DNA of 64,000 nucleotides from Watersipora subatra (lineage: Eukaryota; Bryozoa; Gymnolaemata; Cheilostomatida; Watersiporidae): NCBI RefSeq assembly GCF_963576615.1, contig NC_088708.1:2976001-3040000 (forward strand), given 5' to 3'. Positions 1,054 to 30,100 of the stretch are shown piece by piece. The translations under genes were made by a program, and so were the position numbers. Within the stretch, counting starts at the first letter, position 1. Each line of letters opens with the position of its first letter. The notes beneath the pieces were generated by a model. It worked only from the letters and a program-made list of their open reading frames with translations, searched no databases and was not told where the DNA came from.

Positions 1054-4000
1054 GTAAGTTTATTCTTTGGTAATCATCTATCATTACTTTTTACCAATAA
1101 TGTACCATCAGTGATCTCTAATAGTTTTGTGTTCTTGTTATAATTTAGTTGTATTTTTTCAGGTTGACTCGGCACTGCATTTCATGTGGCTGTCACAGCT
1201 TCGTCATCGTTGGGATGAGGCCAATAGGCACTGCTATGCTAACATCTGTGATGCCCAGTTCAAGTACTCATACGAGTACCTTGGTAACACCGCCCGACTT
1301 GTCATCACTCCTCTCACTGACCGCTGCTACATCACTCTGACTCAGTCACTCCATCTTACTATGAGTGGAGCACCTGCAGGACCTGCCGGCACAGGCAAAA
1401 CTGAGACTACCAAGGATCTTGGCAGAGCTCTGGGCATCATGGTGTATGTGTTCAATTGCTCTGAGCAGATGGACTACAAGGTATGCTTTGCTGAAGTGTT
1501 GCTCATTAACTGTCAATAATTGGCCATAAGTAGAGCAGCATACGCAGTCGACTGTGAAGTGACTGGGTATCTTTATTAATAATCAGTTGCTTAAAGCTCA
1601 GAAATTTTTCATTACTCTTGTACTTGTCAAAAAGTTAGTTACTTGCCAATTTGGATTGTTTTTAGTCGATTGGAAATATCTACAAAGGACTTGCCCAGTC
1701 AGGCGCCTGGGGATGTTTTGATGAGTTCAACAGAATCTCAGTAGAAGTGCTTTCCGTTGTGGCAGTGCAAGTCAAGTGTATTCAGGATGCCATCAGAGAC
1801 AAGAAGAAGATTTTCGCTTTCCTTGGTGAAGATATTAAGCTGATTCCCACTGTTGGCATCTTCATCACCATGAATCCAGGTACACAGGCTATGCACTCAA
1901 ACAAATGCCTTTTTTATTTTTAATGTTACCTGCCAGACTATTGTCTTTGCTATTCCCTGTCAGAGAGATATCTTTCCTCACTGTTTTATAACATGCTGCT
2001 ATACTTTATGAGTGCCACCTTCTTTAGCTCTATTTACTCTATATATCTTTGTATATATCTAACATTAGCTAGTAGTACGCAAGCATTGCCTCTATTTACT
2101 CTATATATCTTTGTATATACCTAACATTAGCTAGTAGTACACAAACATTGCCTTCTTTAGCTCTATTTACTCTATATATCTTTGTATATACGTAACATTA
2201 GCTAGTAGTACACAAGCATTGCCTTTTTCTTGCCTACAGGATATGCTGGCCGTGCTGAGCTACCAGAGAATCTGAAGGCATTGTTTCGACCCTGCGCTAT
2301 GGTTGTGCCAGACTTTGAACTCATTTGTGAGATCATGTTGGTGGCTGAAGGCTTCCTCGATGCTCGTTTACTGGCTAGAAAATTCATCACACTTTACACA
2401 CTCTGCCGAGAGCTACTCTCTAAACAAGACCACTATGATTGGGGTCTGAGAGCTATTAAATCTGTGCTGGTGGTGGCAGGTGCTCTCAAGAGAAGTGACC
2501 CTGACAGGCCAGAAGATCAGGTAAACAGTTTTTATTTAATAAAATCAATGATGAGGAATGCTGGTAGTCACTATTATTATATGGCTTATAGCAAAAGGTT
2601 TAACCGCGTGAGTGTACACCTCTACAGGTGCTAATGAGAGCATTGCGTGACTTTAACACACCAAAGATTGTGACGGATGATGTGCCTATATTCATGGGAC
2701 TCATCACTGATCTCTTCCCTGCTCTTGATGTGCCACGTAAAAGAGATCTGGACTTTGAAAAGGAGCTGAGAAATGGAGCTTTGGCATTGAAACTACAGCC
2801 TGAGGAAGGTTTCATTCTGAAGGTTGTGCAGCTTCAAGAGCTCTTTGAGGTGAGTCTTGTTGTCAGCTGGAATAAAATGAATGATTACTTGCTGGCTTTC
2901 ATAGGCTATGATATATCAGTGGTGCTGAAGAAACAAAATTCTGTTAAATCAATGAAGGATTTGACTACATTGGTTTAGGTGCGTCATTCTGTGTTTATTA
3001 TCGGCAATGCTGGTACCGGAAAGTCGATGGTCTGGAAGACTTTGATCAAGACCTACCAGATGCAAAAGAAAAAGCCTATAGCCCAAGATTTGAACCCCAA
3101 AGCTGTCACAAATGATGAGTTGTTTGGTACGTACCACCCTTAGACTCTGCTTTGTGTAATCTGATTAAATATCTAATGTAATATGAGGGATACGTTGTTT
3201 TTTAATGTTGTAGGAGTTATTAATCCTTCTACACGTGAGTGGAAAGATGGACTATTCTCGGTAATCATGAGAGATCTTGCCAACATCACGCATGATGGGC
3301 CCAAGTGGATTGTACTGGATGGAGATATTGATCCTATGTGGATAGAGTCACTCAACACAGTCATGGATGACAACAAGGTGAGACTAGACTCTTCTAATGT
3401 TTATATAAGTAACTGAGATGTAGGACAGCCGTGTCGACCAATTTGTATAAGTTAAGTAGTTAACCTAGTTAAGTAGTTAAGTAGTTATATATCAACCTAA
3501 ACTTTTTAAGGTGCTGACATTAGCTTCCAATGAACGAATTCCACTCACACCATCTATGAGACTCTTGTTTGAGATTTCTCACCTCAAAACCGCCACTCCT
3601 GCCACCGTATCCAGAGCTGGAATCCTCTACATCAACCCTCAAGATCTTGGCTGGAATCCGTAAGTTTTTATAAAAACTGTTTTTATGAGTAGCCCTGGGC
3701 GATAAAGCGTGGGATCATCTCGCAGACTTTTGGTTTACTTAGTTCTCTCAAGAAGTCTCTAACAACAATCTTCTCATTAATCTTAGCTATGTGAACTCAT
3801 GGATCGACACAAGAGAAGTTCAGTCTGAGAAGGCCAACCTGACAATACTGTTTGAAAAGTATGTGCCGCCATGTCTCGACATCATGAAAGTGCGCTTCAA
3901 GAAGATCACCCCCATAGCAGAGATTGCTCACATACAGATGCTCTGCTACCTGCTAGAGGTTTGTTCTCATATACGTACCAAGACTAGCCCACGTTCTGGT

Positions 4001-7000: not shown

Positions 7001-10000
7001 CCTGGTCGAGATGCCCTGGCCACTATCTATACAAGTATTCTTTCGCAGGTATGTTCAAAATGTTTATTTTTTCCATAAGCATCTTCGATTTTTGCTGCTT
7101 CTTTCACAGGTTCTGAAGCTCACAGAAAACTCTCAGTCTCAACTCAACTCTCAACTTTAAGCCTTTTCATAGATACAAAAAGAACTTTGTCTGTTTGTTT
7201 AGCACTTGACAGTCGCTGGAATGACCGCGCAAGTGATCAAATTTGCTCCTAACCTCATCAATGGTGCTTTGGACTTGCATGCGAAGGTTACCTCAACCTT
7301 CCTGCCTACTGCCATTAAGTTCCACTACATCTTCAACTTGAGAGACTTGTCCAACATCTTCCAGGTTTGTACCTTGTGCCCGGTTATAGCCCCACTCATA
7401 TGTTGCACTCATATGCTGCATTCATACGCTGTTAGGTTGTTGTGAATAAAATGTATCCTTTTCTAGTGTTTTGGCTTTAGAGTCCTTCCTGTCAGGTGTG
7501 CATCAAATTGTAATAACTGTGATAACCTACAGGGTGTCCTCTTCAGCACACCTGAGTGTGTGAAGTCGACCAATGACCTCTTGAGCCTGTGGGTGCACGA
7601 GGCATCGAGAGTTTATGGAGATAAGATGGTAGAGACTGCTGACATGGAGCTCTTCATCAAGACTCAGAAAGATGTTTTCAAAAAGTCATTTGAAGACATT
7701 GAGCCAGATGAAATATTCTCAAAGAAGCCGCTGATTTACTGCCACTTTGCAACAGGTTCTTCCATTCATCATACGCCGGTGTTATAAAAATGCTTTTATT
7801 AAAGTCAATTTAATATTCAAGGTTTTGCGTAGCATTTAGTAGCTTAATACTTGCTTTTTCTTAGCTCTGTTTGTACTCCCCTCAGCGGGATTGAGAAGTA
7901 CATGATAGATTCTAATCTACACAGGCATTGGTGAGCCCAAGTACTTGCCAGTAGCTGATTGGCAGTCCCTGAACAAGCTGCTTATTGAAGCCCTTGATAA
8001 CTACAACGAGCTGAATGCTGCCATGAACCTTGTTTTGTTTGAGGATGCCATGGAGCACATTTGTAGAATCAACAGAATTCTTGAGTCACCCAGAGGAAAT
8101 GCTTTGCTTGTTGGAGTTGGAGGTAAGAAAGGAGGTTGCTGTTGTCTTGTTAGCTATAATATGTACGCAAGATATTGGATAAAATACAGAGGTATGAGGG
8201 ATTATGGATGAAATACAGAGGTGTGAGGGATTATGGATGAAATATAAAGGTGTGAGGGATTATGGGTGAAATACAGAGGTGTGAGAGATTATGGGTGAAA
8301 TACAAAAGTTTGAGGGATTGTGGGTAAAATACAAAAGTTTGAAGGATTGTGGGCGAAATCAATATTGCATATCGTATAGCATTGCGTATCTACTTGCAGG
8401 TTCTGGCAAGCAGTCGCTAGCCAGGCTGGCAGGTTTTATCACAGGCCTCGAGCCATTCCAAATCACCATAAGGAAAGGGTATTCAACTGCTGACCTTAAG
8501 CTTGACCTCGGGGGCCTCTACATCAAGGCTGGAGTCAAAAACATTGGCTGCATGTTCCTCATGACAGATGCGCAGGTTCGTAGAGTATTGTGTGGCTGTT
8601 TATCTCGGCTCCTTTGCTTTTCCTCTTTCACTCTGTTGTCAATACCTCTATAACTTTTGATTACTAGCGATCACCCCTTTTTGCCCATTTTACATCATCG
8701 TCTTTTTTCTCTCTTCAGGTGACTGATGAGAAGTTCCTTGTTCTGGTGAATGACTTGCTGTCTACCGGTGAGATAGCTGATCTACTGCCAGATGATGAAG
8801 TAGAGAACTGTATTAGCGGTGTGAGGAATGAAGTGAAAGGAATAGGGTTAGAGGATACGCGGGAGAACTGCTGGAAGTTTTTTATAGACAGAGTGCGTAG
8901 AATGCTGAAGGTTGTTCTCTGCTTCTCTCCAGTGGGTAGCACTCTAAGAGTGAGAGGCAGAAAGTTCCCTGGCGTTGTGAATTGCACAAGTATAGATTGG
9001 TTCCATGAATGGCCTCAGGAGGCTTTGGTCTCTGTAAGCCGCAGGTTCATTCAAGACAGTGAGTATCTGCCCGAAGAGCTGAAGGACTCTGTTGCAGAGT
9101 TCATGTCCTATGTGCATACGTCTGTTAACGAAGCCTCAATGCAATACCTCACAAATGAGAAACGATACAACTATACAACTCCAAAAAGTTTCTTAGAGCA
9201 GATAGCCTTGTATCTTAATACGCTGGCTACTAAGAACGTTGAGCTGCAAGGAAAGATGCAACGTCTCGAAAATGGCTTGGAAAAGCTTAGGTCTACAGGT
9301 AAGATAATTCATGTATTATAAAAGCAAGACATCGTTCAGTATCTGTCATGTGATCAATAAATGGTCGACACATAATAGACTGGTTAGTATGTGGGTATTA
9401 TTTGTACATTCTTGTCATTGCATATCCATGGTACCGTGATAATACAGCATGTGTACCCAGCATGTAGTATGTACACTACCTGTACACAGCTGCACATTGC
9501 ATGTGATACATACACCGCCTGTACAGTACTGTCATTGTGTACGCAGCTGCACATAGCATGAGATACGCACATCAATTGTACTATACTGCATCATTCACTC
9601 AGCTTATGCGACAGAGACCCCACCCCACTTATGTATTACTGCTGTTGTTCACTTAGCCGCTCAAGTGGATGATCTGAAGGCCAAGCTTGCTGCTCAGGAA
9701 ATTGAGCTGACGCAGAAGAATGAGGATGCCAATAAGTTGATCCAGATCGTAGGAGCTGAGACTGAGAAGGTGTCCAAAGAGAAGGCAATTGCTGATGAAG
9801 AGGAACAGAAGGTAACAGTAATCCCAGCTAGGAGATATATAAAACTATCTCATCTTGTGTTAAAAGGGGATGTTCAGAGCCCGCACTGTTTTTCATCGCT
9901 ATAACCAATTTTTTACCTTGCAAAATGTAAACTTTGTAAACTTGTGATGTAGGTTGCTGTCATCAAAGAGGAGGTGACAAAGAAACAGATATCTTGTGAA

Positions 10001-13000
10001 ACAGATTTAGCTAAGGCAGAGCCAGCTCTGATTGCTGCCCAGGAAGCGTTGAACACACTCAACAAGGTGCTTTTCTAGATGGTGCATATAGATACAAAGA
10101 GTCATATATTCAATTCACATTTGTATATAAGACTCTTGAAACACACTTTGATTATTTTCTTTAGGGCAACCTAACAGAGCTGAAGTCCTTTGGCTCTCCA
10201 CCAGCTGCTGTAGTGAGTGTTACTGCCGCTGTGATGTGCCTGATGGCACCAAATGGAAAGGTGCCCAAGGACAGGTCTTGGAAAGCAGCTAAAGGCATGA
10301 TGGCTAAGGTATGCTCTCTTGAGATACTAGTTGATTTTCCACATTTTTCTTTGTTAAAATCATGCTGCATCATAATATGCATATTCAACTATGCTCTCTC
10401 GTATATGTGTCAACCAATAAATGTATTCAACCATGCTCTCTCGTATATGTGTCAACCAATAAGTGTATTCAACTAGGCTCTCTCGTATATGTGTCAACCA
10501 ATAAGATTTTAGCTTTTTGAAGTATACAATAAACTTTTCAACTAGATGTTTTGTGCATGCGATGTTAAACAGGTGGATGGTTTCCTTGATGCCTTGATCA
10601 ATTATGACAAAGAGAACATTCCAGATAGCTGTCTAAAAGCTATTGATCCATACTTGGCTAATTCTGAGTTCGATCCAGAAAATATACGCTCAAAGTCGAT
10701 AGCAGCTGCAGGCCTATGCGCTTGGGCTATAAACATTGTAGCGTAAGTAGACGGTTGTTAGGCACGCTCGAGAGGGCGCTTCAGAGCTGCTAGCAGGGAG
10801 TCGGACTGAAGCTCTCTCTATAGTTGCTAGTGTTACTTTATATGTTTAGCTTCTTCTCAACCTCTTTCCTCTGTTTATCGCTTCGCACGTTATTGTGTTC
10901 TTTGCTAATTCACTGCTGTTAGGTTGACTCCTTCCTTGATGCCTTGATAAATTACGACAAGGAAAACATTCCAGACGCCTGCCTTAAGGCAGTCGATCCG
11001 TACCTTCAGGATTCCGAGTTTGATGCTGAGTTTATTAAGGGAAAGTCTCTCGCTGCGGGTGGTCTATGCGCTTGGGCTATCAACATTGTCACGTAAGTCT
11101 TGCGCAAAGACCCCTGGCAATTGTAGACACCTTGAATTGGCAACATGTTGTTGTGATGGTTGTAGAACAGTAAATAAATCGAGTAGTTATTGTGTGGCCT
11201 TCAGCTTCCTATCTGTTCATCTCCGCTATTTCTGTCACATTTGCTAGCTGAGGTGATAGCTATATGAGTTGGCTCCCACGCATTGTCTGTTAGAAACAAT
11301 GCATTTTTGTTTTTGCAAGCTGGCAACAGCCAATGTGCCACAGCTTCTTAAAGCTAGTTCAAAAGCCTAAAATGTAAAACAAAAAAATGATATGTGACAA
11401 ATGAATTAATTTTATTTGTTATAAAACCAATTCAGCTAGCTAAATTCCTGCTTGGATACAAAATGGATGTTTGTGGTGTTGATGTTGGTGTCAACACAAA
11501 AAACCTGCACAAAGACTATGGTAGTTAGCAAGTCAGCTGACTGTACGTCTTCTGTGTGGCAGATTCTACCGTGTTTATTGTGATGTGGAACCGAAAAGAC
11601 TCGCTCTGGCAGCAGCCAACGCGGAGTTAGCAGCTGCTGTTGAGAAGCTGAAAGGCATCCAGAATAAGATCAAATCTCTTGAGGAGGTGTTAGGTAAGCT
11701 GACAGCTGACTTCGAGAGAGCTACAGCAGAAAAGATCAGATGCCAGGAGCAAGCGGATGCTACAAACATGACTATCAAGTAAGTGACAGGAAGCAGGTCT
11801 AATTTTTCCTTCTTTAAGAAAGGATGAACTATGAAAGAACTATGACAGTGTGGAAAGGCAATTCCCAGTTTCACCCCTTCATTTCTACACGCTGGATCTC
11901 TCTCTTCTCTATCTTCTCTTCACACATATTCGCAGTTTCACCCCTTCACTCCTACACTCTGGATCTCTCTCTCTCTTTTTTTTCACACATATTCACAGTT
12001 TCACTCCTTCACTCCTACACTCTGGATCTCTCTCTTCTCTATCTTCTCTTCACACATATTCACAGTTTCACCCCTTCACTCCTACACTCTGGATCTCTCT
12101 CTCTCTTCTCTTCACACATATTCACAGTTTCACTTCTTCACTCCTACACTCTGGATCTCTCTCTTCTCTATCTTCTCTTCACACATATTCACAGTTTCAC
12201 CCCTTCACTCCTACACTCTGGATCTCTCTCTTCTCTATCTTCTCTTCACACATATTCACAGTTTCACCCCTTCACTCCTACACTCTGGATCTCTCTTCTC
12301 TATCTTCTCTTCACACATATTTGACAGTTTGGCGAATCGTCTCGTTGGTGGGCTGGCATCAGAGAATGTGCGGTGGGCTGAGTCTGTAGAAGGATTTCGA
12401 GCGGCAGCACAGACGCTGCCAGGAGATGTGCTGCTTACAACTGCGTTCATCTCATATGTCGGCTGCTTTACAAAGGCCTATCGAGTTGACCTTATGGAGA
12501 GCCAGTGGCTACCATTCCTCCACAAGCTCTCGGTAAGCCCGTACTCTGAGCTCGTTCTTTCCTTGTATTCTATCAAATTATAGTCGGATGTTAGTTTGTT
12601 TTCTTGAAATTGTACTAATATTTTATCACCTTTATTTTTGCACAACAGGAGAAATCAGCGGTACAGTATTATTTTATCGTATATTCTTTCTTTTCTGTTC
12701 TATTTTGACTGTTGGATATACCCAGCAAGTTATTGCTCTTGCAAATCAACTTCTGCTTTGCTAGCCAATCTTTCTGTCTTTCAATTAGCTGACCGCAACT
12801 ATCCTAATCATATCGTTGAGGCAGCCTGTGAATGAACTTATAATAATAACAATGTAACTTATAGTGCAACTAAGACAAAAAACTTTGTCTTATGTGAGAG
12901 AAGCCAGCTATTCTTACGAGCATAAATCCAATCAGCAATTTTTCTTTCTAGGCTAAAATGGAATACAAGTGACTGAATTACTCTTTCTAAGTTTCCTCTA

Positions 13001-16000: not shown

Positions 16001-19000
16001 TGCAAGGTGACTGAGTAGTGCAGATGGTAACGTGCTTGGCTGCAAAGCGCGCCTTAGTATCTTAGTTGAATGTCATACAATATTCCTAACGGTCTTAGCG
16101 TGGCTTTGGACAAGTGGACACAACTCTTATAATAGTAAATGTTTTATTTTGTTCAATATTCATTGATAAATTAGAATGACAGGTAATTCAGTCTTTACAC
16201 TTAGACTCAGCTACCACAGCTCAGATACCCGACTCTTCTCAAGTCGACTACATGAAATGGTTGGGTGCCGGTCAAAGCAAATAAATGAGCAAAAGAAAAT
16301 ATTAATTTGTTTTTAGGCCTAATCAAAAAATTTGTTTTATTTGCTTAATTACAGTTCAAATTAAAGCCATAAAATCTCGATATTTTTTCTTTTCTAGAAT
16401 GTACATCTGGTAGCCAAGTGGTTGGCGACTCTTGAAAGAAAACTGGAGGAACACAGTCTAACAGCTAATGAAGCCTACCGAGTCTACATCTCTGCTGAGC
16501 CAGCTGGCACCCCTGATATGCACATAATTCCTCAGGTAATGCCTTCTATTCATCAGTCTCTTTGTAGTTTTACTCTCTAGTTTCCTCAAGTAGTTGAGGA
16601 GTTCTCCACAGCTGCGCTCTATTTGGCTTATTCGGTTCTTGAAATTCATAGGGCATATTGGAGTCGGCCATTAAGATTACAAATGAGCCTCCAACAGGAA
16701 TGCAGGCAAACTTGCACAAGGCCCTGGACAATTTCAATCAGGACACTCTCGAGATGTGTGCAAGAGAAAACGAGTTCAGAAGCATTCTCTTCAGTCTCTG
16801 CTACTTCCATGCAGTAGTGTGTGAGAGAAGAAAGTTTGGACCTCAAGGTACATACACTTTTGTTGAAGTGCAAGGGGCAACAACTAGCAAGCATGCCCTT
16901 TAATACTAATTCACATCAAACTATTGTGTGTAATTATACAACCTATTATTATAAGTGATTATACAACTAATTAACCTTGGAGTTATCTTTACTATGCAAT
17001 AATGAAGGGGACAATTACATAGTGCCGACACCTTCATCCAAACTTAACTTATGTACCCGTCGGCTGCAATTTCTTAAGTCAAATCGTAACTAAGGTTATC
17101 ATAAAAATCTTTTTGCAAGTATTTGTCTTTACATACTAATTAATTTCAAACATACTATATCTAACAAATTTTGAAAGATCAGTTTTGTAAGTAAAAACAA
17201 CAGATTTGGTAACGATCAAAAGCAAAACATACAAATAATAATACTGTATAAACTCTGTTAATTTAAACCATAAATAGTGTAGGTTAAAGTAAGCTATGCT
17301 ACATATTTCCATTAATCACTGTATCACCAAATACACATAGTGCCTCTCCATTAATGTGTCTTTAAGGGAATGTAATGATAGAATCTTCTTTTTACCAACT
17401 ATTACTTTATTAACTCATTTTTACAAATAATTTAGATGTATATATTTGTTTTTTGTATAGTTTTATATAGCACATTTATCGTAGTAGTACATGATTCTAC
17501 TTGAACTATCTATTATTGTTTTATAAGCTCTGGAACGAATTAAGCAAAGCATATGCGTTTTTATGAAAATGTTTGTTTCGATGTACAAAAAAACATGAAA
17601 AAGTATTAACTCGATATGTTGATGTTTGACTGTACTTACTTTTAGTAATGCTTCATTTTATGCTTTTATGGTTCAGAAGCAACCATCAGAATTAGCCAGT
17701 CCTAGTAGATTAGTCAACAGTCACTGCTGTGTAGCTCCCCACTCCACCCTACCAGGTCATCCATTGATACCTTGTAAAATTCTACCTCATTGCACTCGTC
17801 ACCTTTCCTCTTTCACTAATAGTATTATTTGTGTACGCATATTCTGCTGTTGATCTGTACAGGCTGGAACCGTGTATACCCATACAACACCGGCGATTTG
17901 ACTATCAGTGCCATGGTGCTCTACAACTACCTGGAAGCTAATGCCAAGGTTCCATGGGAGGACTTGCGGTACTTGTTTGGTGAGATCATGTACGGCGGAC
18001 ACATTACTGATGACTGGGACAGGAAGCTATGCAGGACATACTTAGAGGAGTACATGCACCCTGACATGGTATGCTTTATCCTATGCAAGTCTCTACATGT
18101 AATAATGCGAGATGACCGACTGTTGCTAAAAATACAAATTAAACCGTTATATAGCATTCACTCGTTACATATTATGCATAGCTATACTAGCTATATCACT
18201 ATGATATGCTACATGTGTAGTTGATATGATTAGGCTGATTGATGCTGGATCTATATCTCCAGCAACCTGACTGCTATAAGGAGATGATATCAGTGAATCC
18301 GTGCAACAAGCACACACCTTATCAACAGATAAATGTATCTCCCTAATTGCCTTCCAAAAGTCGGCTTGTTAAAGATGATTAGTCGATTTCCTTAGACCCT
18401 ACGTCTTGCCCTTTTCCTGCCTAAGCAATTAATGGTTTTTTTGAGGAAGCACTTGCTACTCTTCATATATGTCGCATCTGTTTTTTAAATTTAGAGGGTT
18501 TACAATGTCCATTAAATGGATTTCAGGTCATTGGTGTCGTAAGAGGGCAACTCTTGAGATAGATAATTGAGCTATTTCATAAGATCTGTTAAATTGCTTG
18601 CCAATTATTTAACTCTAATGAGCTTATTGTGTTCTCAGCTCGCCTATCCTCGTAGCATTGGCAGCGGTATTGGCAGCAGCATTGGCAGCTCTGGCTTGTA
18701 ACCTGGGCTCTTGCTAACATATTATCATTTTGATTAGGAGCATGAGTTGAGCTGGAAACATGCTGCAAGCAGGCTTCTAATTACTATTAATAATAATTGG
18801 TATTACGTACTGTGTAACACTTTAATTTTACTCTCACTGGAGTTATCGGTACTACGATGTTTACCTACCTAGCGATTGCCCTCACACATTATCAGTCTTA
18901 TAACTCTGTAAACTACAATAACACGATTTTTATTATATAAAATAAAATCTAGCTTCTTCTGGCAGATGCGCTTGTTGCATGTAATTGTGTGTACTTATTA

Positions 19001-20595
19001 CAGCTGGAAGGAGAGCTGTACCTGGCACCAGGCTTCCCATTGCCACCCAACTCGGACTACAAAGGCTATCACTCGTATATAGATGAATGCCTTCCTCCAG
19101 AGAGTCCCTACCTTTATGGCCTTCATCCCAATGCTGAAATTGAGTTCCTAACAACCAATTCCGACAACTTGTTTAGAACAGTGTTTGAGATGCAACCGAG
19201 AGACAGCGGTGCTGGCAGCGGAGGAGGAGCTACCAAAGATGAGCGAATAAAGGTCAGTCAGCGAGCAGCAATAAAGCTAGCCTAGAAGAAAATGTGTGTA
19301 TTTGCTTTATGGGTTCAGTGTGTCAGCAATGTCACAGTATTACATAAAGCTTTATTTACAGCGTTAGGCAAACTATAGTACTAGTACAGTAGTCTACTCA
19401 AAGTTTGTGCTCTGAAACTTTTACTCATAATTGATTAGTAATCGTGACATGAAGTCATTTGGCACACAATATGCTAACTTGTAGACCATTTTGGATGAAA
19501 TTGTTGAAAAACTGCCTGATGAGTTCAACATGATGGAGATAATGAACAAGGTACCACCGGAGGAGAGAACTCCCTACGTGATCGTCGCTTTCCAGGAGTG
19601 TGAACGAATGAATACGCTGACCAATGAGATAAAGAGGTCACTTAAGGAGCTTGACCTTGGCTTAAAGGTATATCTTTTCTCAGTCTATACGCCTGCTCTT
19701 TTTCTCACTTTAGCGACTGAAAAGTGATACGATTTACAGTCATGTATTTTCACTTTTTTTTAAATGCTAGACTATGGGTACTCATTGCAGGCAAGTATGT
19801 ATGCGTGTATCTATAAGCTTCAGTGTATGACCGATTGTTATATTCTTTTTTAAGGGTGAATTGACAATCACAAGTGATATGGAAGACTTAGGCAACGCTC
19901 TCTTCCTCGACTCTATGCCTGAATCATGGGCAAAGAGAGCGTATCCATCACTCTTTGGACTCGCTCAATGGTATGCTGACTTACTGCTGCGAGTCAAGGA
20001 GCTCGAGACTTGGGTCAGCGACTTCCAACTGCCCGCTGCAGTCTGGTTGGCGGGCTTTTTCAACCCTCAATCTTTCCTCACAGCTATCATGCAACAGGTC
20101 AGGGCCACTTTATGTAATATTTTCGAAAAGAGTGTTGGCACCATAAGCAAGCTATATCATCTCTGAATCTCTCAAATCTTGTTTCTACTGTCTTCCAACA
20201 TTTTATATGTACCATTTTAGATGGCACGTAAGAATGAGTGGCCGCTTGACAAGATGGCCCTGCAGTGTGACGTGACTAAAAAGTCGAGAGAAGATATGAG
20301 TGGACCACCCAGAGAGGGCGCTTACGTTCATGGCCTTTTTATGGAAGGCGCGAGGTGGGATACGCAGACGGGTATGATTGGTGAGGCGCGCCTCAAGGAG
20401 CTAGCACCGGCAATGCCTGTCATGTTCATCAAGGCTATTCCTGTCGACCGCATGGAGACTCGTAACATCTATGAGTGTCCTGTGTATAAAACAAAGCAGC
20501 GGGGTCCGACCTTTGTATGGACATTCAACTTGAAGACGAAGGAGAAGGCAGCTAAATGGATTCTTGGAGGAGTTGCGCTGTTATTACAAGTCTAA
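2..20595 (+). CDS. DNAH9/DNAH17-like: Axonemal outer-arm dynein beta heavy chain, 3' part of the gene (linker to C-terminus)
   Basis: This is the ATP-driven motor subunit of ciliary outer dynein arms. Exons, chosen by GT-AG sites and homology: 2-160, 343-624, 814-1053, 1163-1480, 1666-1879, 2240-2520, 2628-2849, 2979-3126, 3214-3377, 3511-3659, 3787-3958, 5899-6183, 6360-6665, 6803-7048, 7203-7364, 7533-7755, 7925-8122, 8400-8575, 8719-9298, 9657-9811, 9953-10066, 10165-10308, 10573-10742 or 10923-11092, 11563-11778, 12328-12532, 13142-13312, 13444-13698, 13814-14036, 14245-14465, 14583-14753, 15055-15412, 15622-15857, 16398-16535, 16652-16847, 17863-18068, 19004-19252, 19485-19667, 19855-20097, 20221-20595 (TAA). 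All phases close, giving about 2917 residues. The N-terminal tail lies upstream of the window; these heavy chains are usually about 4,500 residues. Four P-loops and the C-terminal LKTKE and VALLLQV motifs match the DNAH9/11/17 group. I cannot tell which paralogue it is. Confidence 0.96.
1163..2520 (+). CDS. Dynein exons 4-6: AAA1, the main ATPase site
   Basis: Exons 1163-1480, 1666-1879 and 2240-2520 encode AAA1. The Walker A loop is GPAGTGKTE (about base 1380), followed by [17 protein letters not shown] (Walker B region) and [18 protein letters not shown] (sensor I region). This is the hydrolysis site that drives the power stroke. No key residue is missing. The intron between the second and third exon carries a threefold repeat of about 70 bp. 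Confidence 0.95.
2023..2226. repeat. Threefold ~70-bp tandem repeat in a dynein intron
   Basis: Three near-identical copies containing CTCTATTTACTCTATATATC and ACATTAGCTAGTAGTAC fill most of the intron 1880-2239. The last copy ends just before the acceptor of the AAA1 exon at 2240. Confidence 0.9.
2628..3958 (+). CDS. Dynein exons 7-11: end of AAA1 and AAA2
   Basis: Five exons (2628-2849, 2979-3126, 3214-3377, 3511-3659, 3787-3958) carry the AAA2 P-loop GNAGTGKS (about base 3005), the segment [16 protein letters not shown], and [14 protein letters not shown]2 of heavy chains binds nucleotide but is thought to play a structural role. Phases 0, 1, 2 and 1-nt splits all close across the junctions. 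Confidence 0.94.
3959..5898 (+). other. Large dynein intron (1.9 kb)
   Basis: No coding potential that fits the gene. It is AT-rich and holds one tRNA-like SINE fragment (about 4555-4640). Open frames at 4121-4342 and 5109-5333 lack splice context and family features. Confidence 0.8.
4555..4640 (+). repeat. tRNA-derived SINE fragment
   Basis: An A-box-like TGGCTTAGTGGTT is followed about 40 bp later by a B-box-like AGTTCAAATTC, the spacing of a tRNA promoter head. It does not fold into a full tRNA by eye, so I call it a SINE head or tRNA relic. Confidence 0.5.
5899..7755 (+). CDS. Dynein exons 12-16: end of AAA2 and AAA3
   Basis: Exons 5899-6183, 6360-6665, 6803-7048, 7203-7364 and 7533-7755. 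The first begins [19 protein letters not shown], typical of the AAA2 C-terminus. The AAA3 P-loop GNAGTGKS is at about 6447, followed by [12 protein letters not shown] (Walker B) and [24 protein letters not shown]3 is a regulatory nucleotide site. It is separated from the previous block by the longest intron of the gene (3959-5898). Confidence 0.94.
7925..9298 (+). CDS. Dynein exons 17-19: AAA4
   Basis: Exons 7925-8122, 8400-8575 and 8719-9298. The AAA4 P-loop GVGGSGKQS is split by the intron at 8123-8399. FLMTDAQ and the long exon 8719-9298 ([13 protein letters not shown], then [11 protein letters not shown]) follow, and the exon ends in the first helix leading to the stalk. The long 580-nt exon is intact. 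A 30-bp repeat array sits in the intron that splits the P-loop. Confidence 0.94.
8160..8360. repeat. 30-bp tandem repeat, about six copies, in the AAA4 intron
   Basis: The unit contains AAATACAGAGGTGTGAGGG and TTATGGATG. It lies inside the intron that splits the AAA4 P-loop codons. Confidence 0.9.
9657..10308 (+). CDS. Dynein exons 20-22: stalk coiled coil 1 and start of the microtubule-binding domain
   Basis: Exons 9657-9811, 9953-10066 and 10165-10308 are heptad-rich ([20 protein letters not shown] onward) and form the outward helix of the stalk. The last exon begins [20 protein letters not shown], the conserved start of the microtubule-binding domain, and ends KAAKGMMAK in phase 0. It feeds either of the two alternative exons that follow. 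Confidence 0.93.
10380..10502. repeat. Threefold 42-bp tandem repeat upstream of the alternative exons
   Basis: Three copies of a unit containing GCTCTCTCGTATATGTGTCA lie in the intron 10309-10572, ending about 70 bp before alternative exon 23a. Confidence 0.9.
10573..10742 (+). CDS. Dynein alternative exon 23a: microtubule-binding domain, version A
   Basis: This 170-nt exon has acceptor AG at 10571-10572 and donor GTAAGT at 10743. It encodes 56 full codons plus two bases, beginning [20 protein letters not shown] and ending [10 protein letters not shown]. This is the second part of the microtubule-binding domain, just before stalk helix 2. It has the same length and phase as the next exon and about 79% residue identity to it. 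Spliced to 11563 the frame continues as [12 protein letters not shown]. No damage is seen, so both copies look functional. Confidence 0.93.
10923..11092 (+). CDS. Dynein alternative exon 23b: microtubule-binding domain, version B
   Basis: A tandem copy of the preceding exon, 180 nt downstream and also 170 nt, with acceptor AG at 10921-10922 and donor GTAAGT at 11093. It begins [20 protein letters not shown] and ends in the same [10 protein letters not shown] motif. The two copies differ at 12 of 57 residues, counting the codon split at the donor, and at many synonymous sites, which indicates an old duplication kept under selection. Using both, or neither, shifts the frame to an early stop, so splicing must be mutually exclusive. 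Confidence 0.93.
11093..11562 (+). other. Dynein intron after alternative exon 23b
   Basis: 470 bp with no repeat or coding signal that I can support. Either alternative exon splices across it to 11563. Confidence 0.7.
11563..11778 (+). CDS. Dynein exon 24: stalk coiled coil 2
   Basis: Begins [20 protein letters not shown] and continues as heptad-rich helix, the return strand of the stalk. It starts with one base completing the codon split by either alternative exon and ends two bases into the next codon (donor GTAAGT at 11779). The next exon lies beyond a minisatellite-filled intron. Confidence 0.93.
11865..12327. repeat. Minisatellite carrying repeated 3' splice-site-like sequence
   Basis: Seven imperfect units of about 60-68 bp contain TACACTCTGGATCTCTCTC and CACACATATTCACAGTTTCA. 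Each unit ends in a pyrimidine tract plus CAG, like the real acceptor at 12325-12327 that closes the array. The units read open in two + frames; this is repeat structure, not protein. Confidence 0.92.
12328..14036 (+). CDS. Dynein exons 25-28: AAA5 and start of the buttress
   Basis: Exons 12328-12532 ([19 protein letters not shown]), 13142-13312 ([20 protein letters not shown]), 13444-13698 ([30 protein letters not shown]) and 13814-14036 ([20 protein letters not shown]). These are the D5 motor segments and the first buttress helix ([12 protein letters not shown]). AAA5 lacks a usable nucleotide site in the family. All junctions are in phase. Confidence 0.94.
12533..13141 (+). other. Dynein intron, 0.6 kb
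   Basis: No exon is needed here: 12532 joins 13142 in phase and the protein aligns without a gap. A short tRNA-like string (GACGGTGTAGTGGTAAATTG) near 13060 is too partial to call. Confidence 0.75.
14245..16847 (+). CDS. Dynein exons 29-34: buttress, AAA5/AAA6 link and AAA6
   Basis: Exons 14245-14465, 14583-14753, 15055-15412, 15622-15857, 16398-16535 and 16652-16847. Landmarks are [92 protein letters not shown] and RRKFGPQ. These are the conserved D6 segments of axonemal heavy chains, intact throughout. Confidence 0.94.
16005..16090 (+). repeat. Possible tRNA-derived SINE head
   Basis: GTGCAGATGGTAACGTGC followed by TTGGCTGCAAAGCGCGCC resembles a D arm and anticodon arm, but the T arm is not clear. 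It lies in the dynein intron 15858-16397. Confidence 0.35.
16848..17862 (+). other. AT-rich dynein intron, 1.0 kb
   Basis: Nothing but AT-rich sequence is seen. The flanking exons join in phase (CAA G / GC TGG). Confidence 0.75.
17863..20595 (+). CDS. Dynein exons 35-39: C-terminal domain and stop
   Basis: Exons 17863-18068 ([30 protein letters not shown]), 19004-19252, 19485-19667, 19855-20097 and 20221-20595. The final exon begins [20 protein letters not shown] and ends at TAA 20593-20595 after GVALLLQV, the usual end of outer-arm beta chains. The acidic/glycine patch near 19200 ([12 protein letters not shown]) is the usual variable spot. I see no strong nearby polyadenylation signal; an AATAAA lies about 1.1 kb downstream, near 21675. 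Confidence 0.94.
18069..19003 (+). other. Dynein intron, 0.9 kb
   Basis: No coding or repeat signal that I can support. The flanking exons join as HPDM then [14 protein letters not shown]. Confidence 0.75.
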
Positions 20596-21289
20596 GCTGT
20601 TGACATTTTAGAGAATGCATTCATTGCTTGCCGTTTTTGACTGACTTTTTGGGATCTCTTAAAAGTTTTGATTCTTTCTATTTTATTTTATTTACCTATA
20701 TTATGCTGCCATCAGGTAAATAAGCCTGTGTTCATTACTCTGTTGTCATACTAAGGAAAACAAACTATCATAGTATTAATTTTACCGATTGGCATGGTTT
20801 GCTCACAACAGTGTATATTATCAATTACACCCGTCCAGCGCTATCTTTTTGGTGCATCCAAAGAAGAAGATTGTGTTTCTATTTCTCTTGCTGCAAGACA
20901 ATCATATCAATTACTACTGGATATCCATATTCATATATAAATATCTTACACAACATAGAAACATCTTTTATCGTTATTACCATAAAAAGGTCTGGTGCTT
21001 TCCTGTTGCCTTCTAATATGACAACCTTCATCACTACGCACGAGCGATAAAATACTCCATCTTTATGCATAAACTAGGTGGAGTCTCTCTATGCTCTCTC
21101 TCCCTGAGTTATACTATTTTATTCAATCTACCCTTCGGCAGTATTTCTGACCTCTCATAAACTTTGTTTTCACACTGTCAGCAAACTCTGTCAAGGTACT
21201 CTCGTCCTTCCACGTGTTTTCTCTTAATGTCAGCTAGCATTGTCAGGATACTTTCTTCCCATGCTGCCTCTTGCCAGCTGTCAACCCAT

Positions 21290-21605
21290 CGTGTCATGGT
21301 GATCCCTTCCTATGCTGCCTGCCTCCTTGTGCACTGTTAGCTAGTTCATGGTGCTCCCTTCCTATGCTGCCTGCCTCCTTGTGCAGTGTTAGCTAGGTCA
21401 TGATGCTCCCTTCCTATGCTGTCTGCCTTCTTGTACACTGTTAGCTAGGTCACGGTGCTCCCTTCCTATGTTGCCTGCCTCCTTGTGCGCTGTTAGCTAG
21501 GTCACGGTGATCCCTTCCTATGCTGCCTGCCTCCTTGTGCACTGTAAGTTAGGTTACGGTTATCTCTTCCTATGCCGCCTGCCTCCTTGTACACTGTTAG
21601 CTAGC
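21290..21605. repeat. ~53-bp minisatellite, about six copies
   Basis: Units contain CTTCCTATGCTGCCTGCCTC and CTGTTAGCTAGGTCA. Pyrimidine-rich, downstream of the dynein stop. Confidence 0.9.
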
Positions 21606-22914
21606 TGTTTTTAATGCTCCTGTCTGATGTTGAATATTTTTTTGGTCAGATGTCTAGATTGTCATGCTGATGCAATAAACAACACGAAGGTTCACTTTTG
21701 GTAATGCATAAACTGGCATGACGAGCGATGACTGTGTTGGTGCCTGTTAGCCATTTCTATCTATGACAAGTTGAGACTTGCACGAATTAAGTCATTTAGT
21801 CTATGCTGGTTTTGTTAGCTAATTAAAACCACCACTGCTACAGCTGAGCTAAGACTTTATAGAATTCAAGTTTTCTGCTGTACTCAATAGCCATGTCTAG
21901 CTGGCCTGCCATAAGACAATAGTAAGACAATTCCAAATTTATTGCAAAGGGTTGCAGGCATGGGCTGACCAGGTCATGTTATTAGCATTCAGTGTCTGAT
22001 GATTGGTCGGAAAGTTTTCATATTCTATCATCATGCCTAATTGTGTGTGAAATGGCTAATTGGTCGATCCAGACTCTCCTCGTTATACGCATTAGCCTGC
22101 TAATAGATTGTTATACATTTACAACATATATGCATACATAATACTCAAAGGTTCATTATGAACACCATAAAAACCATGAACAAACTATATAAATTTATAA
22201 ATATTGTCTTAAGGACTATAACAGTTACTTGTTGTTCAAATAGCCATGCAGGTCTCAATAATGAATATTCATAATAGCTAAATTTAGCATTACTTTCTTT
22301 TAAATATAAGTGCAACCATACCATATCTTGATGAAATATATGTTATAGGTATTAAACTCTTTATGAGACCTTTGAAAAGGCATCAGTCTAGAGCTATTTT
22401 TATCCTATGTCTCCCTAACTAATCATCTCAATGCTAATATAGTGCTGGTAGAGGAAGCACACATTATTTCATTCAGTAAACAGGCTCCGGAGAGGAAATA
22501 ATCCAGAGGAGATTAGTTGCCTTGCTATGATCGCTAATGGCTAGCAATCACTATTTTCTTGCCCATTATATCTGATATTGTATATTGTATATGAATATAT
22601 TCATAACACAGAGAGTAAGCAGGCGCTGCATTATATAGAGATAACAACATTCATTATACAAAGAGAGCCCGCGCGCTCAAAGCAAGCTGTGCGCCTATAT
22701 TTTCCGAATATCGTGTGCAGTGATTAGATGCAAGGCGAGCCGTGAAGTGTGCAGAGACAATTGGAGTACATTTCTGATTCTCAGCACGTCTCGAGGACAT
22801 CAGATCATCAGCTATAGTAAAGCAGCTACGACAAACAGGTAGACCCTTTAGGCCTTTTCGACTTCTGTTAGCATACAGTGATAATATACAGTAAGCTATG
22901 ATTTTATTGTGATC

Positions 22915-23465
22915 TTTTAGCAATACAGTAAAATACAGTCAACTGTGATTTACTGTGATCTTTTAGTAATACACAGTATACTGTAACGCACTGCAGACTA
23001 CCAGCTTGTACACGTACAGTATACTGTGTCTTACTGTGATCTTTCAGTAATACATGGTATACTGTAATGCACTGCAGACTATCAGCCTGTACACGAACAG
23101 TATACTGTGATTTACTGTGATCTTTCAATAATAGAAAGTATACTGTAACGCACTGCAGACTATCAGCTTGTACATGTCCAGTGTACTGTGATTTACTAGG
23201 CTCTTTCAGTAATACACAGTATACTGTAACGCACTGCAGACTATCAGCTTGTACATGTACAGTATACTGTGATTTACTGTGTTTTACTATGATCTTTCTG
23301 TAATACACAGTATACTGTAATGCACTGCAGACTATCAACTTGTACACATAGAGTATACTGTGATTTACTATGATCTTTCAGTAATACACAGTATACTGTA
23401 ACGCACTGCAGACTATCAGCTTGTACATGTCCAGTGTATTGTGATTTACTAGGATCTTTCAGTAA
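22915..23465. repeat. ~92-bp minisatellite, about six copies
   Basis: Units contain AATACACAGTATACTGTAAC and GCACTGCAGACTATCAGCTT. The array gives a 147-codon reverse open frame that is only repeat. Confidence 0.92.
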
Positions 23466-24618
23466 TATATATGTACAGAATATTCTACAATGTCAAAGAA
23501 GAAGCTTAAGACGGCTCAACTGATCTGCCAGACATTTCTTGGCCGCAAATGAATTGCATGAAGAAATGCACTGTGTTCGTACAAACCAATGTTATAATAT
23601 GATGTAAATAATAGTAATATAATATAAAGGCTGTAATATATCCATATAATAGTTACTTCATGAAATGAGATGTTATAACGGATGAAAGTGTTTCTATAGC
23701 CAAGAGTATGTATCTCAGCTCTGGTGTGACTGTAGGCTACAACAAAAAAACGTGCTCAATGCTTATGGTTATTAAAAGTAGCGACTTGGTTTTCATAGAA
23801 TCACATGTAATTTCCTGTCTGCATTTGAAACCTCATCCTCAAAGCAGCAACAGTTATTATGGTACAAAGTGTTTGAAAGTAACTAGGAGCTCGGTCAGAA
23901 TGAGAGCAGAACAAGCAAAAAGTGTTGAAGATGTCGTCAGCTGGACACACTTGTTATATCACACCAAGTTTGTTGAACTTGAACAGTTGTACGGCAGGGA
24001 AGTCCTTCTGTTGACTCGCACAACTGACTAAACAATAAGGGCTGACAGTCAAGATAGAGCCTGACTAACATAACTGAGACAATCTGATCACATCTTGAAA
24101 AGATTGTTGCTGATAATCTATTCTGCTGGTGAATGTAAGTGTTTGTTGAGCAAACAAAAAGTATTTCCAGAAATGGACCACATTAAAAAGATCTTCGCTA
24201 TCTACTAACCGATTTACAGCGATATTGAACAACAAACCAAAAAAGAAGCAGTCAGTTGTTCACTTGATTTATACTCGGAGTAAAGGTTGGAAGACAAAGA
24301 GGAAAGGGACTGTTAGACACTGGTAGATTGTACTCAACTACACAATAACATCCTTGTTCACTCATAGTGTATCTGGAGGCATGCATCAGGTGCGGACAGA
24401 GTATTACAAACCATGATAAAAGCTCCCATGGGGGCTGTTTTACTTTACAATACATTGCACCTGAACTGATTCTAGTAACATAGCTAATCACAGTTAAAAC
24501 CCATCTATATCTTACCCACAGGGACACAAATCCAATGGCATGTACCAAAGCCAAGGAATAATCTAATATTTGAATGTTTAAATATTAATACTTTAGAAGA
24601 AGCAAAACAAGAGGAGTG

Positions 24619-26808
24619 ATGCAGTTGAACGTTCAATCCACGCGTGATGACATGACCTCAGCGGCAGCGGAAGTCAACATCTGTATCGGGTGCAACCAGG
24701 TATAAAGTTCTTTCCTTTTAGACTAGCTAAATAAATACACAAGCTTACACCTTACAGTGCATACAATGAAAGCAGACATGAGCCATGTATTGCTCTTCCT
24801 TACTTTTGCAGTATATTTGCTGACTAAAGACTTGCCTTCAGTATTTTCTTCTAATTAACTATCACACTATGAGGTGAGAGATTTCCACCTGAAATATATT
24901 TATGAGCAATCAACTTAGATGCAGAAACATTTTCTAGCACTCGTACCTTCTACCAAACATCTCGGTTTTCTAAACGCTAAAGTTTCTAAGAAGCGTATCA
25001 AACCTTCTCTATAACCATACATGTGTGTTATGCTCAATCACACAAGCATGCAGTCCAATTGAAAAGTTTCTTGCTGCGAAAGAAAGGTTTATAAAACATT
25101 AGTGAAGCTGTAAGTACATGTAATTTCTGTCCTATAACTTGCTTTGCCCACTTGTTCACAGGCTATAAAAGACAAGTACCTACTAAAGGCCATCGAGCAA
25201 GTCTGGCATGAAGATTGTTTGAAATGCTCATGCTGTGGGTGCAGATTGGGTGAAGTCGGATCTTCTCTGTTTGTAAAAGCCAATTTGCTGTTATGCAAAC
25301 GAGACTATTTCAGGTAAGAAATCAAATTCTATTTCACTGGCTTTTACTAAACAGTCTAAGATCGGCAATACATCAGCACAGAAATGGTTTGCAGAAGTTC
25401 AAACAGGTTTTTACTTAGAACTATGTAGGAAGAGCTGATTGCGTAACTGCAGCGGAGAACTAATCAAATCCATACACTGTTGATTAATAAATATTTAATT
25501 ATTCTTTCATTTTATCTTGATGATTAATACAGGAAGGTAGGCAACTAATGTATGCGTGGCAGAAAACAATGCGGGCTTTGTATGATCTGACACGAGAGTA
25601 ATTACATAGATGTGTCACAAGCAAAGCAACGTGCCGCATCAGCAATAATTGCAATTGGAAATGGCAAGCAATCAAGACATGAGGCAACTTCACAGCATGC
25701 TCTAATCAAAAACTCTAGGAGCGCATATGCTGCTTTATTCTATAAATATTGATACGCTTGCAATCTAATCAACACAGCTATAGCTCAGACTTGTTGGGCA
25801 TCTCAACATTGGATGTTTTCAGAGATGTTGCCTTTCTGATCGCCTTATCCAATTCATTTGCAGATTGTTTGGCATGCCAGGTCATTGTTCAGCTTGTCTG
25901 CTGCCAATACCATCTTTTGAAATGGTGATGAGAGCAAAAGAACATGTTTACCACATAGAATGCTTTGCGTGCTATAAATGCAGGCTAAGGTAATAATCGT
26001 ATCCAAAATATACAATCAAAAATAATTTTTAGTGGTGATAGTCAAGGTAGTACCATATCAGTATTATAGACTACATTAACAACACGTTTGTATGTTGTGA
26101 CTACATTAACAACACGTTTGTATGTTATGACTACATTAACAGCACGTTTGTATGTTATGGTTACATTAACAACACGTTGGTATGTTATGACAACATTAAC
26201 AACACGTTTGTATGTTATGACTACATTAACAACACGTTTGTATGTTATGACAACATTAACAACACGTTTGTATGTTATGACTACATTAACAACACGTTTG
26301 TATGTTATGACTACGTTAACAACACGTTTGTATGTTATGACTACATTAACAACACATTTGTTTGTTATGACTACATTAACAACATGTTTGTATGATATGA
26401 CTATATTAACAACATGTTTGTATGTTATGGTCAGATGCTATGGTAAGCTCGCTGTGGTGCAATTTAAGTTAATGCTAAGGGAATTCACAAAATCTGTCTA
26501 GAAATATGAACGCCTGGCTTGTTGCAGCAACAAAGTTGTTTTTCAGGTTCTGCGTAGGAGACAAATTTTATTTATTTGGAAGCAAGATAGTTTGTGAAGA
26601 TCACTACGAAGTTGTGGAAGGAAAAGACAACCTTGAAGAGTCTTTACAACTCCATGACAAAACAGTTCGTAGTCATGCACAATTGGAACAGCTGCAGATA
26701 TGCAAAAACTCTGACAGAACTGCTGCCGAAGAGCAGTGCAGTGAACAGCGGAGGGTAGAGGAAATGGTAGACACGGTGAACACCAGAACATCATCATTTT
26801 CATCTTAA
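24619..26808 (+). CDS. LMO1/LMO3-like: LIM-only transcriptional cofactor, LMO1/LMO3 type (rhombotin)
   Basis: Nuclear adaptor made of two LIM zinc-binding domains that bridge bHLH, GATA and LDB-type partners. Exons are 24619-24699, 25162-25313, 25864-25989 and 26547-26808 (TAA): 621 nt, 206 residues, all phases closing. LIM1 starts [16 protein letters not shown] and contains [20 protein letters not shown] and [14 protein letters not shown]2 has [27 protein letters not shown] and a final CEDHY. These match vertebrate LMO1/LMO3 more closely than LMO4. The start is the first ATG in frame of exon 1 ([14 protein letters not shown]); a second ATG is nine codons further on. After LIM2 there is a tail of roughly 60 residues rich in E, Q and S that vertebrate LMO1 (about 156 residues) lacks. 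It is convergent with CCDC112, stop codons 358 bp apart. Confidence 0.93.
26066..26430. repeat. 30-bp minisatellite, about twelve copies, in LMO intron 3
   Basis: The unit contains ACATTAACAACACGTTTGTA. Because the period is a multiple of three, it stays open in two frames; it lies wholly within the intron 25990-26546. Confidence 0.93.
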
Positions 26809-27166: not shown

Positions 27167-30100
27167 TCAAAGACCTCGTCTCCAAGACGGAACACCCCTG
27201 CAATAGACACACACTAGATGAACTGAAATGCAGAAGTAGTCAAAGGGAAGCTACCTACATGTGCTACTACGGAATACCGTATGACATCACACAATATTAT
27301 TTACCCTAGGACACTTATGTATTCGCGGCATCTAACTTTCGCGTTTTCGCGGTGTCATCCTCTCGCGAAAGTTTCGTGTGCGAAACTAAACTATCATAAC
27401 AAACGAGCGAAAAAGCGAAACTAAATAGCTTTGTTCATTGATACTGCATAATTGAATTTTATAACGACATTTATTTCAACGATTTTAACGACCACTATAG
27501 CATCGTTAAAATATAAACCGACAAAATAATTTGACTGTCAAAATTTATTATGTTATTATTTTGCAATTATTTAGGATTATTTTCCCATTAGGAATGATAT
27601 ATAATGATAGGAATTTGATGTCAATGCACATGCATTAGTTAGCGTTATCGTTTGCTGGGGACATCAATCAATGCAGTGAGCACCGTGTGTTGAAAGAAAA
27701 TAAGACACATGCACTGACACTCGCAGTACTACACAAGCAGCATGGCTCTGGAAAGGTTTGGATTCACCACTGACACCTCTTCAATAACTTGTAATTTTTT
27801 TAGATTTGTTTTGTTTTAAGTGATGTGACTGACGAGACGTTTTTAAATTAAAATAGGCATAACATGACCGCAGTTAATACGCTCAGAAAAAAAACATCTT
27901 TTCCTTTTGAGCGTTTTAACAAAGATCAATTTTGCGGATTTTATTTTAAGTTCATTCGGAGGCTTTTACGCTTTCGATGGGACACGGCCAAGCGGGTGAT
28001 TGATAAAACTGAATCTTTTGCAAACCTTTATAAAAGTCGTTAACAAAAATATTTTGCCTCTGATGACGATAATAATGATGCCTAAGAACTACTAGAAGTT
28101 GATGTTTGTCTCTATGGCTTGGAATGAAGTGACATTCTACAGCGATAAAAACCGCGTCCATGGCCGTTGGGCAAGTAACTTTTCGAATAAAGTATGTTGA
28201 GGTCGAGTTATCTGAAGGAATTTATCATTGCGTTGGAACTGACCAAACAAATCCGTTTGAGTTGACCTTGTGTTTGAGATGAAATGTTACATTTTATCTG
28301 AGGGTGAGTTTTTTGAGTTGGACTGTACTTACCGTAAAAAATTCCCAAAAAGTTGGGGCGGCTCAGCCGGCCAGCTGCCCCAGTGAAAACTGGCCTGTTG
28401 ATAGTCCAAGAAACAAATGGCAGCAAGCGATCAAATTGCATTATCGACCTTACCCACACCATTCTACCTGCGGTTCACAATTACAAACTAGTCGCAAATT
28501 GAATTTTTTTTATCGGTGAACCGAACCTGAGGAATATAATTATGTTTGTTCCACTGCATTTATTTTCACATCACTATATTTTCGCACTCATCAGAGCTGC
28601 GAAATTAAGTTGCTTCGAAATTTTACTCTGTGAGCTACTCACGAAACTAAATACTAACGAAATATAAGTGTCCTAGGGTACAAGCATGTGCCTCTGTATA
28701 CTTCAGCATGCTAAAACACACAGGAAGAGAAAATAGTCATGACACCACATTAAATTATTTATTTGTAAAATACATATATCTTGTGTTCAGACCAATTCAT
28801 AGTACTGTTCTTTGAAACAAATATCAAAGGATTATTTATAGCCCATATGTTAACTGTTAACAGTAGGACCATATGTTAACAGTAGGACTATATGTAAACA
28901 GTATGTTAACTGTTAATAGTAGGAATATATGTTAACAGTATGTTAACTGTTAACAGTAGGACTATATGTTAAAAGTATGTTAATTGTTAACAGTAGGACT
29001 ATATGTTGACAGTATGTTAATTGTGGGACTATATGTTAACAGTATGTTAACTGTAGGACTATATGTTAACAGTATGTTAACTGTAGGACTATATGTTAAC
29101 AGTATGTTAACTGTAGGACTATATGTTAACAGTATGTTAATTGTAAACAGTAGGACTATATATTAACAGTATTTTAACTGTGGGATTATATGTTAACATT
29201 ATCTTAACTGTTAACATTATTACTATATGTTAACAGTATGTTAACAGTAAAACAATATGTTAACAGTATGTTAACAGTAGGACAATAGGTTAACAGTGCG
29301 TTAACTGTTAACAATAGGACTATAATTATGTTAACATTATGTTAACCGTTAACAGTAGGACTGTGTTAACAGTATGGTAACTGTTAACAGTAGGAGTATA
29401 TGTTAATAGTATGTTAACTGCTAACAGTAGAACTATATGTTAACAGTACGCTAACTGTTAACAGTAGGATTATGTTAACAGTATGTTAACTGTAGGAATG
29501 GATAAAGCAAGATGTATTAAATATTGAAGTGACACGCAGATAGACAACAAATTCTGCAATGCTCTAAGTGAGTATTTGGAGACACCAAGGAATCGACCTA
29601 AACAACAATATTTACGTATTCAATTAGATGAAAATTTTTCCATTTTTCCACAAGTCAGCCATAATTCATTGTCAGTCTGAGGCAGTATGGCCAAGCTGTA
29701 GAAACATTCTTCCTCATTTACTGCATTATGATATACCTATACTTCGCATAGTTCAACACTGCCGAGGAAGTACACGATGGTTGAAACAGAAGTCATTCTA
29801 ACATAGGCGTAATGAGACAACTCTAACTGTATGGTCCTTTGCATACAAATAGTGACCTAACTAATACCCAATACACTAGCCAAGGCAACATGTTTTCTAA
29901 TGATACAAAGACTCTTCTATTATTGGTTGAGTTCATGCAATATTATCTCGTCTTGAAACATCCGAGTCGGTACACTTGATGACTTGTAACCTATTTGCTT
30001 TGATAAGCTACATTCACTCTGTAAAATCTTGCCTGCCTAAAAATATGCCTAATAATGTAACATGAGTCATCTGCTCAGCACGGAGTTGAGAAAAATAATG

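Follow-up and report, generated by a model that had tools for sequence, protein, structure and literature searches.

Two tandem 170-nt exons, probably mutually exclusive, encode part of the microtubule-binding domain in a DNAH17-like outer-arm dynein gene of Watersipora subatra

The window analyzed here (the whole 64,000-nt stretch, in which all positions below are counted) opens within a dynein heavy-chain gene, which runs to a TAA stop codon at 20593–20595 and the 5' part of which lies beyond the window. The features required for the present analysis, all on the forward strand, are as follows:

2–20595, + strand: outer-arm beta heavy-chain gene resembling DNAH17, 3' part only, with some 40 exons, as given by the exon chain and by DNAH17 as best match
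10165–10308, + strand: constant upstream exon, presumably the end of stalk helix CC1, H1, H2 and the start of H3 (from frame, splice sites and alignment)
10309–10572, + strand: intron 1, 264 nt, with four CTCTCT (three inside a 42-nt repeat) and a TGCATG at 10554
10546–10572, + strand: possible 27-nt in-frame extension of exon A (9 codons) from an upstream AG, speculative
10573–10742, + strand: alternative exon A, 170 nt, presumably the rest of H3, H4, H5 and H6; low-scoring acceptor and donor
10743–10922, + strand: intron 2, 180 nt, separating A from B; branch-like CTAAT at -18 from B
10923–11092, + strand: alternative exon B, 170 nt, the same part of the domain as A with 12 substitutions; ordinary splice-site scores
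10945–10950, + strand: TGATAA double stop, read when A and B are both included
11093–11562, + strand: intron 3, 470 nt, following exon B
11563–11778, + strand: constant downstream exon, stalk helix CC2; low-scoring acceptor

In assembling the exon chain, the choice of exons was partly guided by DNAH9 and DNAH17 sequence. The resulting frame is open in the window, apart from three in-frame stops that all fall in 7110–7364, where the script missed an intron, and two junctions of the chain (3131–3187 and 16868–17822) are doubtful. Searches of solved structures with four pieces of the gene (the microtubule-binding segment with A, the same segment with B, the C-terminal exon, and 193 residues that precede the stalk) returned DNAH17 (9fqr) first and DNAH9 (8j07) second each time, with 244 vs. 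239 bits in the stalk region and 232 vs. 212 bits at the C terminus. An initial sequence-only reading of this DNA had called the gene an outer-arm axonemal heavy chain, and these searches bear it out. Its sequence places the gene among the outer-arm beta-type heavy chains, closer to DNAH17 than to DNAH9, these two being the animal chains of the DNAH9/11/17 type that were compared.

Elsewhere in the window, pieces resembling a non-LTR retrotransposon lie in separate open frames at 44538–47177 on the forward strand:

44538–45593, + strand: endonuclease frame (PF03372)
46263–47177, + strand: reverse transcriptase frame (PF00078)

Minisatellite-like arrays with units of about 17 to 81 nt occupy 11846–12320 (in the dynein intron that follows the constant exon 11563–11778), 21241–21656, 22843–23548, 25979–26518, 28856–29510, 31719–32089, 35484–35831, 40295–40749, 57762–58001 and 61702–62141. 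Two similar, non-tandem stretches about 0.8 kb apart on the forward strand (42520–42669 and 43298–43543), each running into GGTAAGT and a common downstream sequence, may represent a dispersed repeat or a duplicated unit, and a further similar pair about 0.7 kb apart (49890–50090 and 50580–50980) lies outside the tandem arrays. An Rfam scan at the gathering threshold and a tRNA scan both came back empty.

Exons A and B each comprise 56 codons plus 2 nt, start in phase 0 and end in phase 2, with acceptors AAACAG/GTG (A) and TGTTAG/GTT (B) and donors AGC/GTAAGT (A) and CAC/GTAAGT (B), the slash marking the exon boundary. Either exon alone joins without a stop to the upstream exon, which ends in AAG at 10308, and to the downstream exon at 11563. 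Inclusion of both leads to a TGA at 10945–10947, in the eighth codon past the junction codon and directly followed by TAA, and skipping of both leads to a TGA at 11581–11583, six codons on. The two tandem exons, their positions and the stops created by double inclusion and double skipping had been read from the letters alone, together with the proposition that only mRNAs carrying exactly one copy stay in frame; phases, splice sites and computed joins confirm all of these, and the reading frame tolerates exactly one copy. A and B are homologous neighbors inside the gene, matched in length and phase and bounded by valid splice sites, as expected of mutually exclusive exons. A variant of exon A is conceivable through the upstream AG of its possible extension, as the nine added codons hold no stop; that AG scores low, about the same as the proper acceptor of A.

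The two exons are identical at 121 of 170 nucleotides (71%) and at 45 of 57 residues, and a blastp comparison of the A frame with the B frame gives E = 8e-31; chance similarity is rejected on identity, on this E value and on the selection analysis below. A 175-residue segment matches the Pfam family PF12777 about equally well with A (4.6e-86, 289 bits) and with B (3.1e-85, 287 bits), which upholds the earlier assignment of the exons to part of the microtubule-binding domain. When 850 stop-to-stop frames of at least 35 codons from both strands of the whole window were compared with one another (low-complexity filter, E up to 1e-6, pairs restricted to the same strand and within 6 kb), coding support was seen for A/B alone; the remaining pairs lie mostly in tandem arrays, the exceptions being the two dispersed pairs near 42.5/43.3 and 49.9/50.6 kb described above. 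A repeat scan of positions 1–40000 returned 12 families, namely the A/B pair and 11 with the short spacing typical of tandem arrays. No further copy was found by tblastn of both peptides in the introns or the rest of the window (other matches at E of at least 1.0). Searches of viral contigs (111 pattern matches) and prokaryote genome contigs (592) with the exon A form (79 aa) likewise produced no relatives.

The pattern of divergence between A and B is that of protein-coding sequence under constraint. The 49 nucleotide differences are distributed 12/7/30 over the three codon positions (chi-square P = 1.3e-4), and the Nei-Gojobori estimates are 0.77 for pS, which is saturated and beyond correction, and 0.15 for pN. 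In 2 x 20,000 simulations of neutral decay, under a null that puts all 49 differences into one copy, none of 40,000 runs was free of stops with 12 or fewer amino acid changes (minimum 21, observed 12). The own-frame coding score is positive for both exons (17 and 31 bits) and negative in the other frames, the codon table containing exon A and hence slightly favoring it. For both copies, then, pN, pS and the simulations indicate selection at the protein level. The duplication itself appears to be old rather than recent, because the flanking introns are alike only at roughly chance level (ungapped identity over 100 nt of 21% upstream and 34% downstream, with 26% expected from base composition). 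In trees built from the exons alone and four outside sequences, the peptides of which were copied from the structure search alignments, A and B are sisters (0.94 by FastTree; 87 by ultrafast bootstrap), with branch lengths of 0.07 for A and 0.19 for B, the latter being more derived; an initial tree built with the constant flanks was inflated by these and is set aside. A DNAH9-like paralogue as the source of B is not supported by this sister relationship, though only four outside sequences enter it. Both copies look selected, consistent with their having been kept as protein since an old duplication, and, since selection appears to act on both, two real isoforms are supported.

As to what would be swapped, we take the constant upstream exon to supply the end of CC1, H1, H2 and the start of H3, and the alternative exons (with limits that are in part our assumption) the rest of H3, H4, H5 and H6 up to the base of CC2. 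Residues 33–46, around the start of H6, account for six of the 12 substitutions (P35A, N37F, R39K, S40G, I43L and A46G), a clustering with P = 0.03 for a region picked after seeing the data. By a manual residue count combined with the residue names given in papers, the last constant codon before the alternative exons (AAG, lysine) aligns with R3342 of mouse cytoplasmic dynein and S40G with R3382, a residue of H6, whereas E3378 corresponds to a glutamate that A and B have in common. PMC6629372 cites earlier work for microtubule contacts by H1, H3 and H6, reports interface residues that match earlier data, with H3 and H4 positioned higher than in an older model, and describes a slight shift of H6 to meet alpha-tubulin. 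The same paper assigns a long flap, among human chains, only to DNAH1, 3, 5, 7 and 8, and the DNAH17 type would therefore be without it. The swap could thus tune the grip of the motor by replacing the start of H6, where alpha-tubulin is contacted, while H1, H2 and the beginning of H3 stay constant.

Mutation of E3378 alters the speed and run length of cytoplasmic dynein, as cited in PMC4987762 and PMC4230729: a change to lysine lowered the speed and raised the run length (cited in PMC4987762), and the equivalent change in C. elegans raised microtubule binding (PMC4230729). PMC4987762 itself, however, locates the mutated residues E3289 and E3378 far from the interface with the microtubule and is doubtful of a salt-bridge switch, finding none. 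Differences between A and B are mild (net charge differs by one; BLOSUM62 is at least 0 in 9 of 12 substitutions), and at most a tuning of grip is expected, because these changes are gentler than the E3378 mutation. We give even odds that the swap would yield a real difference in microtubule grip.

This mildness bears on the alternative that survives best, according to which A and B are both real and used, the choice between them is unregulated, and the products are equivalent with no division of labor. The mostly conservative substitutions and the charge difference of one speak for it, as does the occurrence of the relevant residue runs elsewhere in the family (RSKS of A in DNAH17, KGKS of B in the Chlamydomonas beta chain). 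Redundant copies, however, would not be expected both to persist at a pN of 0.15 with saturated synonymous sites, and B is more derived than A (0.19 vs. 0.07 in branch length), so that we consider full equivalence unlikely.

For the choice of one exon, splice sites were scored with small matrices against 34 of the 38 introns of the chain, two around A/B and two doubtful ones being left out. Exon A ranks near the bottom of this set (1 of 34 donors and 2 of 34 acceptors score at or below its own), exon B in the ordinary range (21 and 26 of 34, respectively), and a low score, with 5 of 34 at or below it, is likewise found for the constant downstream acceptor at 11563. The donors of A and B share GTAAGT and the C at -1, so that the two bases preceding this C are their sole difference. 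At 0.54, the pyrimidine content ahead of A does not stand out from the other introns (0.41–0.84). A branch motif YTNAY is absent before A, but so it is from the last 70 nt of 5 of the 34 other introns and, between -50 and -12, from 14 of 34; a missing branch motif as a sign of a weak exon A was dropped on account of this common absence. Tentatively, and at slightly less than even odds, these scores suggest that B is the default exon and A a regulated exon with a weaker acceptor: exon B would be joined by default through ordinary splice sites, and exon A would be used where a splicing factor assists or a repressor is absent. This guess fits the pattern given by a section heading of PMC5740500, by which clusters mainly consist of one ubiquitous exon and otherwise regulated ones.

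Two motif observations in intron 1 are leads only. CTCTCT occurs four times in its 264 nt vs. seven times in 10,092 nt of other introns (one minisatellite removed), with three of the four lying in one tandem repeat, and TGCATG stands 13 nt before exon A, as one of nine in the first 20,600 bases. We take the former to be a PTB-like site and the latter an Rbfox-type motif. The tandem repeat itself (a 42-nt unit repeated three times at about 10385–10510, each unit with a CTCTCT) may be a splicing-regulatory array or a plain minisatellite.

Exclusivity might alternatively be imposed by competing RNA structures between introns, with docking and selector sites of the kind reported for Dscam, a mechanism known for such exons (PMC5740500, PMC6071210). 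Intron 3 alone does fold slightly better than its shuffles (z -1.9), but no whole-intron duplex exceeds shuffled controls (98, 78 and 53 of 100 shuffles reach the observed intron-intron pairing energies), and none of eight inverted-repeat pairs of 10–14 nt is an obvious docking site; a single sequence without relatives makes this a weak test, and we regard the mechanism as very unlikely here. No steric block of A-to-B splicing was found, intron 2 being 180 nt long with its branch-like site near the 3' end, and no U12-type donor was matched. RNA structure, steric and U12 mechanisms accordingly find no support in these introns. The reading frame is the only guard of exclusivity demonstrated, the decay of wrong forms being assumed: doubly included and doubly skipped mRNAs would, we infer, be removed by nonsense-mediated decay, and because of this presumed removal the frame would be at least one guard, while the splicing step itself could be leaky.

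The low-scoring splice sites of exon A, along with its lower GC3 (0.36, vs. 0.52 for B and for the gene), could also be read as signs that one of the two copies has become, or is becoming, a dead pseudoexon since the duplication. Against such decay, neither copy contains a stop or frameshift, none of the 40,000 neutral simulations resembles the observed pair, and it is A to which the shorter branch on the exon-only trees belongs; the pseudoexon reading is rejected by the neutral-decay simulation and appears highly improbable. Barely credible are the readings for which the tandem arrangement alone speaks, i.e., both copies in a longer protein, the simple form of which is refuted by the frame shift into TGATAA, or an assembly artefact or collapsed paralogue, given copies that differ at 29% of sites, unlike flanks, and a gene that otherwise chains single-copy and open except for the missed intron and the two doubtful junctions.

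Overall, the evidence favors, with a probability of about 0.88, the interpretation of A and B as bona fide mutually exclusive exons, derived from one exon that was duplicated in tandem long ago in an outer-arm beta heavy-chain gene of the DNAH17/DNAH9 type. The sequence-only reading stands as regards the outer-arm axonemal chain, the part of the microtubule-binding domain and the one-copy logic of the frame, to which selection on both copies is now added; its further proposal, that one gene would make two motors, for example for different cilia or sperm, may hold.

The sequence-only reading knew of no such case in an axonemal heavy chain, and the matches listed in a survey of the open-access literature do not contradict it: homologous exons of this exclusive kind were not found among them for any axonemal chain. 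Among those matches, mutually exclusive exons of a dynein heavy chain appear only in the cytoplasmic DHC1 of Schistosoma mansoni (SmDHC1; PMC3228551); they differ from the present pair in belonging to a cytoplasmic chain and in splitting codons at both exon ends, whereas the 5' end of A and B is in phase 0. Human frame-incompatible clusters of mutually exclusive exons are described in PMC5740500, and a term search of its main text returned no DNAH gene. Two other papers come close in subject: PMC11780860 records a mutually-exclusive-type event of DNAH11 exons 9/10 in one patient, classed as aberrant splicing, and PMC12965833 notes exon duplications in the annotation of Drosophila Y-linked genes, axonemal dyneins included, but mentions no mutually exclusive exons, the term "mutually exclusive" not occurring in it. 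A beta-type axonemal dynein gene is an unusual and informative place for a mutually exclusive pair, and we regard the predicted placement of A/B in it as sound.

Better-known systems provide the context for the functional proposal. The arthropod muscle myosin heavy-chain gene Mhc makes specialized motors through a choice of exons, a role that falls to a gene family in most other animals (PMC2257972), and the present dynein gene would do likewise; Mhc, however, encodes a myosin and has several clusters (nine in Daphnia magna, according to PMC3228551), in contrast to one pair in the stretch seen, within the track-binding domain of a dynein. The mammalian DNAH9, DNAH11 and DNAH17 share the beta heavy-chain type and the existence of cilia and sperm variants, but their diversity derives from separate genes and not from exons (PMC7041708); by the same account DNAH17 is testis-restricted, DNAH9 and DNAH11 are found in respiratory cilia, and DNAH9 occurs also in sperm flagella. 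Because mammals use the DNAH9/11/17 genes and insects myosin exon choice, the idea of one gene and two motors has a clear parallel. In its full form, one beta heavy-chain gene would replace the mammalian division of labor among DNAH9, DNAH11 and DNAH17 by switching part of the microtubule-binding domain, so that different cilia or sperm, perhaps differing in tubulin isotype, would be provided with motors of matched grip and stepping; we hold this to be rather doubtful, though worth entertaining. If the selected swap is real, it would represent a natural matched pair of motors, 12 residues apart in the stretch seen and with six of these near the start of H6. If the proposal is true, the tuning of stepping by this domain in beating cilia, as well as differences in grip among types of cilium, would become directly testable.
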